NCBI GenBank assembly: GCA_016872645.1
Contig: VGZH01000008.1
Span: forward strand, 1-64,000
Direction: 5' to 3'
DNA length: 64,000 nt
Source: Planctomycetota bacterium
GTDB taxonomy: Bacteria > Planctomycetota > Planctomycetia > Planctomycetales > Planctomycetaceae
Part shown: piece by piece, positions 39,296 through 42,687 of the stretch
Layout of the letters: every line of letters starts with the position of its first letter
Position numbering within the stretch: position 1 is the first letter of the stretch
Notes under the pieces: model-generated
The model's input: only the letters and a program-made list of their open reading frames with translations
The model's database searches: none
Told to the model about the DNA's origin: nothing
Program-made: the position numbers and the translations under genes

Positions 39296-40078
39296 TCACC
39301 AAAGCGTGTAGCCGCCGTCGATGACGATAGCCGCTCCGGTGACATAGCGGGCCGCGTCGCTGGCAAGGTAAACCGCCAGCGGGCCGAGATCCTCTGGTTT
39401 TCCAAAGTCCCCCGCGGGGATTTGCTGCTTGAAGGTGTCGATGATCGCTGGATTCTGAGCGGCCCAGCGAACGTTCGGTTCGGTCATGAATCCGCCAGGG
39501 CAAATCGAATTGACTGTGATCCGATGCGGAGCCCAATCAGTGGCAAGTGCTCGCGTAAACTGAATGACCGCCGCCTTCGAGGTCTCGTAGCTGCGGCCGC
39601 CGATCCCACGATTGGCTATCATCCCGGAGATCGACGCAATGTTGATGACTCGGCCACCAGTCCCGCGTTTGACCATTGCTCCGCCGATCAGCTTCGTGCA
39701 GAGAAACGTGCTCGTCAGGTTGATATCCAGAATCTGCTGCCACTGTTCGAGTGTCTGATCCTCGACCGGCACGTTCATCCGCCGTCCGCCGACGTTGTTG
39801 ATCAGAATGTCAAACGTCCCGAACTGATCAAGCGCTCGCTGACAGACTTGCTCGCACTCACTGGGGACGCCGACATCGCCGGCCAGAATGTCCGCCTTCC
39901 GACCGAGCTGTCGAATGTCGGCAGCGGTTTTTTCCAAGCTCTCACGATCGCGACCGACCAGCACGACCTCAGCACCCACATCGGCAATCGCCAAAGCCAT
40001 CTCACGCCCAAGTCCACGGCTTCCACCGGTGATGAACAGCCGCTGGCCGTCTAAGCGAAATCGATCAAGCACGCTCAT
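39296..40078 (-). CDS. Short-chain dehydrogenase/reductase
   Basis: This is a 260-residue classical SDR with TGGSRGLGREMALA near residues 18-31, NNVGG in place of the usual NNAG, the catalytic Ser in NIASISG and YETSKAAV (Tyr-x-x-x-Lys). The end YVTGAAIVIDGG is typical. It may be a gluconate 5-dehydrogenase-like enzyme; the substrate is not certain. Its ATG overlaps the rsmD stop codon (ATGA), so the two are translationally coupled. Confidence 0.9.
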   Translation of the reverse strand: MSVLDRFRLDGQRLFITGGSRGLGREMALAIADVGAEVVLVGRDRESLEKTAADIRQLGRKADILAGDVGVPSECEQVCQRALDQFGTFDILINNVGGRRMNVPVEDQTLEQWQQILDINLTSTFLCTKLIGGAMVKRGTGGRVINIASISGMIANRGIGGRSYETSKAAVIQFTRALATDWAPHRITVNSICPGGFMTEPNVRWAAQNPAIIDTFKQQIPAGDFGKPEDLGPLAVYLASDAARYVTGAAIVIDGGYTLW

Positions 40079-40752
40079 ACAAAGTGCTCCGGTGGTGAAA
40101 GGGAATTCGAGTCGATGGATTCAGCGACGGGTGTCGGTTGTTCTTCGAGAGTTGCCGGCTCAGGTGGCTTCGCCTTCTGATAGATGAAGATTTCCATGTG
40201 TGAGAAAGGCCAGTGATGCGCAAGTTCCCAAACATCGGGCATGACGAATTTCGCCTGCGCCGGTGTCCGAAAGACCAATCGTGTATCGGGAGAGCTGACG
40301 TCGTCGCGGGCAAGCTGCTTCAGAACTCGAAACAACTCTGAGGTGGGAGACAGATCTTTCACCATCGCGAACGGCGGATCAAAAAAGATCCAATCGAACG
40401 GGACAAACTGGGCCGATCCCCCTTTGGGGCGAAACGAGCAACGAAAAATGTCCGTCTGCCAGCACAAGCACGCGGTCTGAGCCTCCTCACCCAACGAGGC
40501 GACATTGTGTTTCAGTAATTCGAACGCTTTGCGGTCTTTTTCGAGGAACACAACGCTCGCCGCCCCGCGGCTGAGGGCCTCAAGACCAATCGTTCCCGTA
40601 CCGGAGAAGATATCCGCGACACGCTGTCCCTCGATCCAGTCACCGAGCCTCGTAAACAGCGATTCCTTCACAAAGTCGCTGATCGGCCGCGTCGTCAGTC
40701 CGGGATTCGCCAACAGTTTTCGCCGACGAAATCGTCCTGCAATGATCCGCAT
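40075..40752 (-). CDS. rsmD: 16S rRNA (guanine(966)-N2)-methyltransferase
   Basis: This is a 225-residue SAM methyltransferase of 16S rRNA. Marks are RIIAGRFRRRKL, RPISDFVKESLF, VADIFSGTGTIGLEALSRGA and the catalytic FFDPPFA (DPPF). A 40-residue Pro/Glu/Ser-rich tail after the usual end is unlike E. coli RsmD. GGAAGG precedes the ATG, and the FHA gene lies 18 bases upstream of it. Confidence 0.93.
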   Translation of the reverse strand: MRIIAGRFRRRKLLANPGLTTRPISDFVKESLFTRLGDWIEGQRVADIFSGTGTIGLEALSRGAASVVFLEKDRKAFELLKHNVASLGEEAQTACLCWQTDIFRCSFRPKGGSAQFVPFDWIFFDPPFAMVKDLSPTSELFRVLKQLARDDVSSPDTRLVFRTPAQAKFVMPDVWELAHHWPFSHMEIFIYQKAKPPEPATLEEQPTPVAESIDSNSLSPPEHFV

Positions 40753-40770: not shown

Positions 40771-41361
40771 TTAATTGCCTGTTTTCAGAGCGGGAATCTG
40801 TTTCGGCAGCTTGCCAGCTTGAACCAATTCAAAGTGCCGCCGGATGATGTCTGCCCCCTCGTCACCGACCGTTTTGAATTTCTTCTGTCGGGGCAGTGGC
40901 ACGGGAGGTTCTTCTGGGATTGGTGTCGGCGGGGCGGAGCGCGCTGGTGCGGGATCACGCCGGACAATGGTCGTGTCTCCCGTTTCGCTTTCGCCCTCTT
41001 CATCCGCCAGCCAGTCCAAAATGCTGTCGTCGCAGGCAGATTTGTTGGAGGGCGTAGTTACCCCCGTTTTCTTTCCGGCAAGTTGAAACGTAATTGGGCC
41101 GACTCTCAAAATATCCCCTGGTTGCAGTTCCGCTTTGCCATTGATTGCAACGTCATTGATCAAGGTGCCGTTACGGCTGCCGAGATCATGAACCACCACG
41201 TGATCTCCCTCGCACACCAAACGACAATGTTGACGGCTGATTTGGTTGGTCGCCAGCCGGATCTGGCAAGACTCATCCCTGCCAACGACGACCTCTCCTT
41301 CGGGAAGCGTCATCCGCTTTCCTTGATGTTTTCCAGAGAGAATAATGAGGATCGCAGGCAT
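40771..41361 (-). CDS. FHA domain protein
   Basis: This is a 196-residue protein. The N-terminal half is a forkhead-associated domain that binds phosphothreonine: VVVGRDESCQIRL, ISRQHCRL and DLGSRNGTLIND, with the conserved Gly-Arg, Ser-x-x-His and Asn-Gly. The C-terminal half is Pro/Glu-rich with ADIIRRHFELV near the end. It lies between rsmD and the degenerate-receiver gene on the same strand, so a link to phospho-signalling is possible. A kinase partner is not in the window. Confidence 0.9.
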   Translation of the reverse strand: MPAILIILSGKHQGKRMTLPEGEVVVGRDESCQIRLATNQISRQHCRLVCEGDHVVVHDLGSRNGTLINDVAINGKAELQPGDILRVGPITFQLAGKKTGVTTPSNKSACDDSILDWLADEEGESETGDTTIVRRDPAPARSAPPTPIPEEPPVPLPRQKKFKTVGDEGADIIRRHFELVQAGKLPKQIPALKTGN

Positions 41362-41453: not shown

Positions 41454-42011
41454 TTACTCGTGCCGCGGAACAATCAGCGGCGCACCACAATCCGTACATG
41501 TTAGTGTCCGGCCGCGATGCACGGGACTCACTTTGAATTTCTTTCCGCAGCGGCAATTAAAGCGGATACGTTTCTCTTCTTTTGGGCCCCCGAGGTGCGT
41601 TCGCTCCCAAACACGCTGAACGATATCTCTGATCTCGGCGAGCAAGTTGTCTGGTGCGGCAGGCTTCGTCAAATAACCGTCGGCTCCCAGCCGCTCGGAA
41701 AGAGCGCGTGAGTCCTCCAGCGAGATTGCCGACAATACCAGGATAGGAACTGATTCGTCGGAGCGTTTCATTCTGTCGATCAACTCAAAACCATTTTCTC
41801 CCGGCAGGATCAATTCGGTGATTACGAAGTCCGGGCGCCGCATCCGAAATGCAGAGTGCGCTTGTCCGCCGTCTTTTGCAACTTGCACTCGGTATCCGTG
41901 CTGTTCGAGCAATGCCTTCAGCGAATCAGCCGCCGCGGAATCATCCTCAACCAGCAAAATATGATGAGCCAGCGCTCCAGCCGAAACGCTTTCAAGATGG
42001 CTGAACGGCAT
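41454..42011 (-). CDS. Degenerate receiver domain fused to a zinc ribbon
   Basis: This is a 185-residue protein. Residues 17-135 form a response-regulator receiver: acidic pocket VEDDS, switch Ser in VLSAIS and Lys in YLTKPA. At the phosphoacceptor position the sequence is VITELILPGENG, with Glu in place of the usual Asp, so it may mimic the phosphorylated state. A short tail follows with CRCGKKFKVSP and CTDCGAPLIVP, four cysteines fit for one zinc. There is no DNA-binding output domain. GAGGAGG precedes the ATG. It is divergent from csrA, with 457 bases between. Confidence 0.88.
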   Translation of the reverse strand: MPFSHLESVSAGALAHHILLVEDDSAAADSLKALLEQHGYRVQVAKDGGQAHSAFRMRRPDFVITELILPGENGFELIDRMKRSDESVPILVLSAISLEDSRALSERLGADGYLTKPAAPDNLLAEIRDIVQRVWERTHLGGPKEEKRIRFNCRCGKKFKVSPVHRGRTLTCTDCGAPLIVPRHE

Positions 42012-42468
42012 TGCTCGGCCTCCTCACCCTGATCCAGCACGGATTGCAGAACAGGTTTTTGCAAGGAATTCGGATTGTCAAGCGCCGCCGATAAAGTACC
42101 GAAAAATCCAAAGCTCAGCGAGGCTTGTGTCAGATGAATTCGAGTTCATGCAGTCAATACGAGCTACGAAAACTCAAGTCCAATGAAGCCTGACTCCCGC
42201 AGATATCGGAAAACTTAAGCAACGGCCTTACCGCTCGTTGCACCTGTTTATCCGGAAAAATGGCGAGGGACGAACCAACTCGGAGGCGGTTGCACTGGAA
42301 ATGTCAAGTCAACAGGAGGCCGAAGCGGCTTGACCGTGCGATTAAATTCTCTAATATTCGGGAAGAGATGTCTGGTGTCAGCGTTTTTTTGGTACCTCCT
42401 TGGTGGTGAGTCCGAAGAAACACCGCACATGCAGATTTGGAAGACCGAGGTTTGGAGATTCACGCCCC
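42012..42468. other. Region between receiver gene and csrA
   Basis: This 457-base divergent gap contains the csrA promoter at 42330-42357 and a leader of about 105 bases with GGA motifs. I see no gene in the rest. Confidence 0.5.
42330..42357 (+). promoter_or_regulatory. Sigma-70-type promoter of csrA
   Basis: TTGACC at 42330-42335 and TAATAT at 42352-42357 are separated by 16 bases. This puts a transcription start near 42364, about 105 bases before the csrA ATG. The leader contains two GGA motifs (ATTTGGAAG and GTTTGGAGA), the second overlapping the ribosome-binding site, as expected if CsrA represses its own translation. Confidence 0.6.
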
Positions 42469-42687
42469 ATGTTAGTCCTGTCCCGCAAACGCAATGAAAG
42501 CGTGGTTATCAACGACCAGATCTTTGTGACCGTGATCGAAGTTCGAGGCGACAAGGTTCGCTTGGGCATTCAGGCGCCTCGCGATGTTGTAATTCATCGC
42601 AGCGAAGTCATGGCGGCGATTCAAAGAGCGCAGTCGGTTGGAGCGGCCGAAGTCGATGAGTCTGGCGGCGAATCGGCAGGGACGTAA
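42469..42687 (+). CDS. csrA: Carbon storage regulator CsrA
   Basis: This is a 72-residue RNA-binding dimer that represses or activates translation at GGA sites. MLVLSRKRNESVVIN, IEVRGDKVRLGIQAP and EVMAAIQ are canonical. The last 18 residues are Gly/Glu/Ser-rich and not conserved. GGAG is 11 bases before the ATG. tRNA-Glu follows 61 bases downstream but has its own promoter. Confidence 0.97.
   Translation: MLVLSRKRNESVVINDQIFVTVIEVRGDKVRLGIQAPRDVVIHRSEVMAAIQRAQSVGAAEVDESGGESAGT

Follow-up and report, generated by a model that had tools for sequence, protein, structure and literature searches.

Repeated loss of the phosphoacceptor aspartate in a receiver–zinc-ribbon protein encoded beside an FHA gene in Planctomycetaceae

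Receiver domains that lack the phosphoacceptor aspartate, including those with Glu in its place, are well known. These aspartate-less receivers or pseudo-receivers (ALR/PsR), such as ChxR, NblR, FrzS, WhiI, HP1043 and the plant PRRs, share the PF00072 receiver fold. Glu is their commonest replacement (26%), and the second metal-binding acid tends to be lost as well (PMC4395418, PMC12632262). How pseudo-receivers work and how they arise from phosphorylatable receivers is an open question according to a 2025 review, which also describes the pseudo-receiver of Myxococcus FrzS as a phosphorylation-independent docking surface for SgmX (PMC12632262). Two further systems bear on the locus described here. 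GarA and OdhI are small FHA proteins with a tandem-Thr motif (ETTS) outside the FHA domain (PMC5448819), and ArnA of Sulfolobus is a signalling protein with both an FHA domain and a four-Cys zinc domain (PMC6509490).

We analysed a window of 64,000 nucleotides from a Planctomycetota bacterium of the family Planctomycetaceae (contig VGZH01000008.1, positions 1 to 64,000), which encodes a receiver–zinc-ribbon protein next to an FHA protein. The receiver shares its fold and its missing Asp with the ALR/PsR proteins, but most orthologues in this family keep the Asp and its loss recurs among the syntenic orthologues of a single family; at the C terminus, a zinc ribbon linked to FHA takes the place of a DNA-binding domain. 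Unlike FrzS and SgmX, the window protein has other domains and another partner, and docking has been shown for FrzS whereas for the window protein we infer it. The FHA partner differs from GarA and OdhI in that its tandem-Thr motif (DTTI) is C-terminal and that it has a dedicated receiver-ribbon neighbour, whereas ArnA is archaeal, lacks a receiver domain and carries a RanBP2-type finger.

A receiver with Glu at the phosphoacceptor position

The gene (185 aa) occupies positions 41454..42011, as originally predicted, on the minus strand, which the prediction had left unstated, and has orthologues in 108 genomes of the family. Its receiver domain (residues 17-134; 41610..41963, minus strand) is identified by Pfam, by an AlphaFold model and by PDB matches. 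Pfam Response_reg covers residues 18-127 (E = 2.6e-24), and PF00072 scores 85.9 bits against a curated cut-off of 30.2. The AlphaFold model of the 185-aa protein (mean pLDDT 88) has a (beta-alpha)5 receiver fold that superposes on NtrC1, ArlR and other solved receivers with Z scores of 22-23 and an rmsd of about 1 Å. Codon 66 (41814..41816, minus strand) is GAA, encoding Glu, where most relatives have the Asp codons GAT or GAC. In the model E66 lies immediately past beta-3, and in the PDB alignments it stands opposite the phosphorylated Asp of MtrA and RegX3 (VITELILPG versus VLLDLMLPG). The other active-site residues, E22/D23, S94 and K116, are retained. The original prediction of Glu at the phosphoacceptor site, with the remaining acidic residues, the Ser and the Lys kept, is thus borne out by alignment and fold. 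With Glu66 in place of Asp, the window protein is not a canonical phosphorylatable receiver; it is structurally an aspartate-less or pseudo-receiver, a receiver fold without the phosphoacceptor Asp as defined in PMC4395418 and PMC12632262.

The prediction would have fallen had a nearby Asp been the true phosphoacceptor. The candidate, D61, is ruled out by alignment and fold: it lies five residues ahead of position 66 and belongs to the invariant 'PD' that opens beta-3. It is hardly credible that phosphorylation of Glu66 or of another residue continues to switch the protein. The remaining active-site residues are unaltered and the protein may contain Ser/Thr-kinase sites, but no other Asp is positioned for phosphotransfer and the Asp has been lost without a measurable cost in constraint. 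About 25 receivers were scored in the window genome, and Glu at the phosphoacceptor site was found in the window protein alone. Three other receivers of this genome (L353, L354 and L356) also lack the phospho-Asp, with Gly, Thr and Ser, respectively.

Pfam detected no DNA-binding output domain, of the OmpR type or similar, in agreement with the original prediction; the protein consists of just the receiver and a Cys ribbon (residues 149-182, CxC-x16-CxxC; 41466..41567, minus strand). The predicted four-cysteine tail is real, with Cys 153, 155, 172 and 175 invariant in 107/107 complete orthologues, and it folds into small beta-hairpins in the model of the whole protein. Four invariant Cys in paired knuckles class the tail, by sequence, as a zinc ribbon, and it would be expected to bind zinc. 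Pfam placed the ribbons in no family above its cut-off. One orthologue (L157, G031; L015) has an in-frame TAA between receiver and ribbon, representing either a split gene or a sequence error.

Recurrent loss of Asp at position 66

A profile search over 170 genomes of Planctomycetaceae, including metagenome-assembled genomes, Schlesneria, Gimesia, Planctomicrobium and Thalassoglobus, yielded 108 usable orthologues. Residue 66 is Asp in 89 of them, Glu in 14, Gly in four and Ser in one; the truncated copies L248 (Lys) and L249 (Glu) are not counted. A search for the same Glu in orthologues, as the original prediction had proposed, therefore finds it recurring without being fixed. An ancestral Glu was also considered for the family and is ruled out by the prevalence of Asp together with the tree. 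Among the nine same-genus orthologues other than the window copy, Asp is found in eight and Ser in one; in the latter the adjoining acid is replaced by Asn. The nearest same-genus relative, whose protein is 95% identical, has Asp at position 66, encoded by GAT rather than GAA. Since Asp prevails within the genus and the nearest species has GAT, Glu66 in the window species is, judging from these codons, a recent one-base Asp-to-Glu change.

It is also evident that the same Asp was lost repeatedly. When the active-site columns are masked for tree building, the distribution of Asp and non-Asp requires about 10 changes on the full tree, 8 of them forced by starred branches, and 8 changes on a careful tree from which 13 rows with long branches or many gaps had been removed (bootstrap range 8-8). 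The Asp has thus been lost independently about 8-10 times in the receiver-ribbon family. Several Asp-less clades comprise two or more species, and Glu is the outcome in approximately 8-9 of 11 Asp-less groups. Because the same Asp is lost repeatedly among orthologues, the observation of Glu66 is not a chance one. As a control, an OmpR-type regulator was scored in 60 of these genomes and has Asp in every one; 15 of the 60 are Asp-less at the receiver-ribbon gene (P = 0.0002, Fisher's exact test, uncorrected for kinship); this regulator was found with a hand-written 43-aa OmpR-like probe, and its orthology across genomes is likely but unproven. In 392 sampled genomes of the phylum, the receiver-ribbon profile had no match at E 1e-30 outside Planctomycetaceae.

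The window assembly is metagenome-derived and fragmented (213 contigs), and a single base (GAT to GAA) separates its codon from that of the nearest species, so a sequencing or assembly error concealing a true Asp has to be weighed. We regard such an error as very improbable. Completeness of the assembly is 99.99% and contamination 1.3%, and the same change appears in other lineages, each time in two or three genomes that agree (L152/L153/L169, L168/L175/L177 and L240/L242), so Glu at this position is a genuine state within the family.

The FHA partner and its fusions with the receiver

The gene next downstream (40771..41361, minus strand) encodes a 196-aa FHA protein (Pfam FHA, 8.4e-20). In 102 of the 108 loci the receiver-ribbon gene is followed immediately by an FHA gene on the same strand, usually with a gap of about 10-200 bases. 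Of the six unlinked loci, one ends at a contig edge, and for the other five a matching FHA gene was found at another place in the genome. The FHA neighbour noted in the original prediction is therefore conserved, and it recurs in fused paralogues. The FHA domain (41077..41343, minus strand) has the Arg, Ser and Asn of the phosphothreonine (pThr)-binding site intact, as have the partners in 17/17 Asp-less and 81/85 Asp-bearing genomes. By the presence of the domain and these three residues, the partner classes as a phosphothreonine-reading FHA protein.

Its tail, also on the minus strand, carries a conserved DDxIxxWL motif (41008..41034), a DTTI motif (40966..40977) and a helix motif F-[ST]-[VI]-x-[ED]-E-[AG]-x-x-I-I-R-R-H (40828..40878), the last of which also ends the fused paralogues. 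The first Thr of DTTI is present in 94% of partners, and the motif is a candidate phosphosite by comparison with GarA (PMC5448819). We treat its resemblance to the ETTS phosphosite of GarA as a lead; by score the partner is not OdhI or GarA, with 36.3 bits for the NCBIfam OdhI equivalog NF041660 against a cut-off of 200.

A csrA gene (42400..42687, plus strand; Pfam CsrA, 2.1e-23) lies divergently upstream of the receiver-ribbon gene and is found upstream in 43 loci, and an rsmD-like methyltransferase gene (40075..40752, minus strand; Pfam Cons_hypoth95) is next in the cluster, downstream in 59 loci. Several genera keep the FHA gene with rsmD (and csrA) but have no receiver gene. Upstream of the FHA gene, L389 (G173) holds a decayed receiver-ribbon remnant. 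Another copy upstream of an FHA gene, L395 (G184), is divergent, with the Asp kept and the second metal-binding acid replaced by Arg. From the FHA-rsmD arrangements without a receiver and the one decaying remnant, the FHA protein does not always depend on the receiver gene.

Fused paralogues of 420-630 aa occur in 21 genomes of the family (L403-L421, L423 and L424; also L250-L259) and unite the receiver, two ribbons, the FHA domain and the same tail helix in one protein; the window genome has no such fused copy. None of the 21 fused paralogues has the phospho-Asp (Lys 7, Glu 6, Gln 5, Thr 2, Ser 1). The FHA domains of all 21 are without the Asn, and mostly also without the Arg and Ser, leaving no complete pThr site in any of them, unlike the FHA of the two-gene form. 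In genus g76 (L241, L243 and L245) the genes are split, the receiver has Asp and the second ribbon of the fusions is part of the FHA protein, a form that is possibly intermediate. As Rosetta-stone evidence, the fusions suggest that the receiver-ribbon and FHA proteins act together, and their sequences further suggest that the assembly is able to exist without either phospho-input. No description of the receiver-ribbon/FHA pair was found in the open-access literature. As far as that literature shows, the unit itself, its repeated conversion in one syntenic orthologous family and these doubly blind fusions are new.

Constraint after Asp loss and the role of the receiver

Pairwise dN/dS in the receivers of Asp-less relatives is 0.01-0.06, equal to that of Asp-bearing pairs (nearly saturated pairs were not interpreted). 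Asp-less receivers are thus under strong purifying selection and, by that measure, still useful. Position 66 changed 12 times over the tree, and A45, G49, Q50, P60, D61, G74, E76, P89, L104, Y113, P117, L123 and all four Cys did not change at all. A family signature, A-x-D-G-G-Q-A-H, falls in the beta2-alpha2 region and includes A45, D47, G49 and Q50; this region has no role in classical phospho-switching and is flagged by covariation in pseudo-receivers (PMC12632262). The dN/dS values weigh against a receiver decaying neutrally towards a pseudogene once the Asp is gone, as do the ribbon Cys kept in every complete Asp-less copy and the Asp-less clades of two or more species. Decay would fit the genera that have FHA and rsmD without the receiver gene, the decayed L389 copy and the longer branch of the window copy than of its sister (0.08 versus 0.02), and we consider it improbable.

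The original prediction further suggested that, with Glu in place, the protein may be constantly active. As a family trait this does not stand, because 89 of 108 orthologues have Asp and the family is thus not built for constant activity; at best it is possible for the window species, where Glu66 would mimic phospho-Asp and lock the receiver active, the same state having been reached in other lineages. The outcome of Glu in 8-9 of 11 Asp-less groups exceeds the 26% in Asp-less receivers generally (binomial P of about 0.002 for 8 of 11), a rough yardstick since events are compared with static counts. The window protein also keeps the acidic pair, Ser94 and Lys116, and Tyr113, of the Y/T coupling, is unchanged over the tree. 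However, Asp-to-Glu is the most conservative one-base change and by itself often fails to activate receivers (PMC4395418), and Gly and Ser in orthologues and Lys, Gln, Thr and Ser in fused paralogues, none of which mimics phospho-Asp, substitute as well. Moreover, the second metal-binding acid is missing in 13 of 19 Asp-less copies versus 3 of 89 Asp-bearing copies (P = 6e-10, Fisher's exact test on raw counts). With relatedness controlled this co-loss is not significant (median P = 0.38), nor does counting a loss at DD1, DD2 or Lys make it so (P = 0.13), so that co-loss of the second metal acid with the Asp is suggestive only. Taken together, mimicry seems rather unlikely. Given the Gly, Ser, Lys and Gln replacements and the weak mimicry of Asp-to-Glu changes (PMC4395418), we argue that what evolution tolerates or selects is a receiver independent of phosphorylation, not one that is permanently active.

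The docking role contained in the original prediction remains the best reading of the evidence, and on balance we lean towards the receiver-ribbon protein being a docking subunit of an FHA module for which Asp phosphorylation is an optional, repeatedly lost input. The window protein, as the receiver–zinc-ribbon subunit, would form a conserved two-protein unit together with the adjacent FHA protein, its receiver fold serving mainly as a protein-docking surface and its ribbon as a second contact. Linkage and fusion suggest, and do not prove, such physical contact. The phosphothreonine-reading FHA partner would be the indispensable phospho-sensor, perhaps under Ser/Thr-kinase control, possibly via the DTT motif of its tail as in GarA. 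Because most orthologues have a complete phosphorylation site, Asp phosphorylation probably matters in most lineages; it would be an extra input there, dropped about 8-10 times. In the window species the recent one-base change would have left a receiver that is blind to phosphorylation and still constrained.

More broadly, and tentatively, Planctomycetaceae may possess a unit that joins a His-Asp receiver to a pThr-reading FHA protein, from which evolution repeatedly strips the Asp input, and both inputs in the doubly blind fused scaffolds, while the assembly is kept. The family offers about 8-10 natural, independent conversions in one syntenic gene, including sister species whose proteins are 95% identical and differ at the site, which makes it possible to study the effect of Asp loss on an almost unchanged protein background. 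In addition, the family suggests that two-component receivers and Ser/Thr-kinase signalling are connected through FHA.
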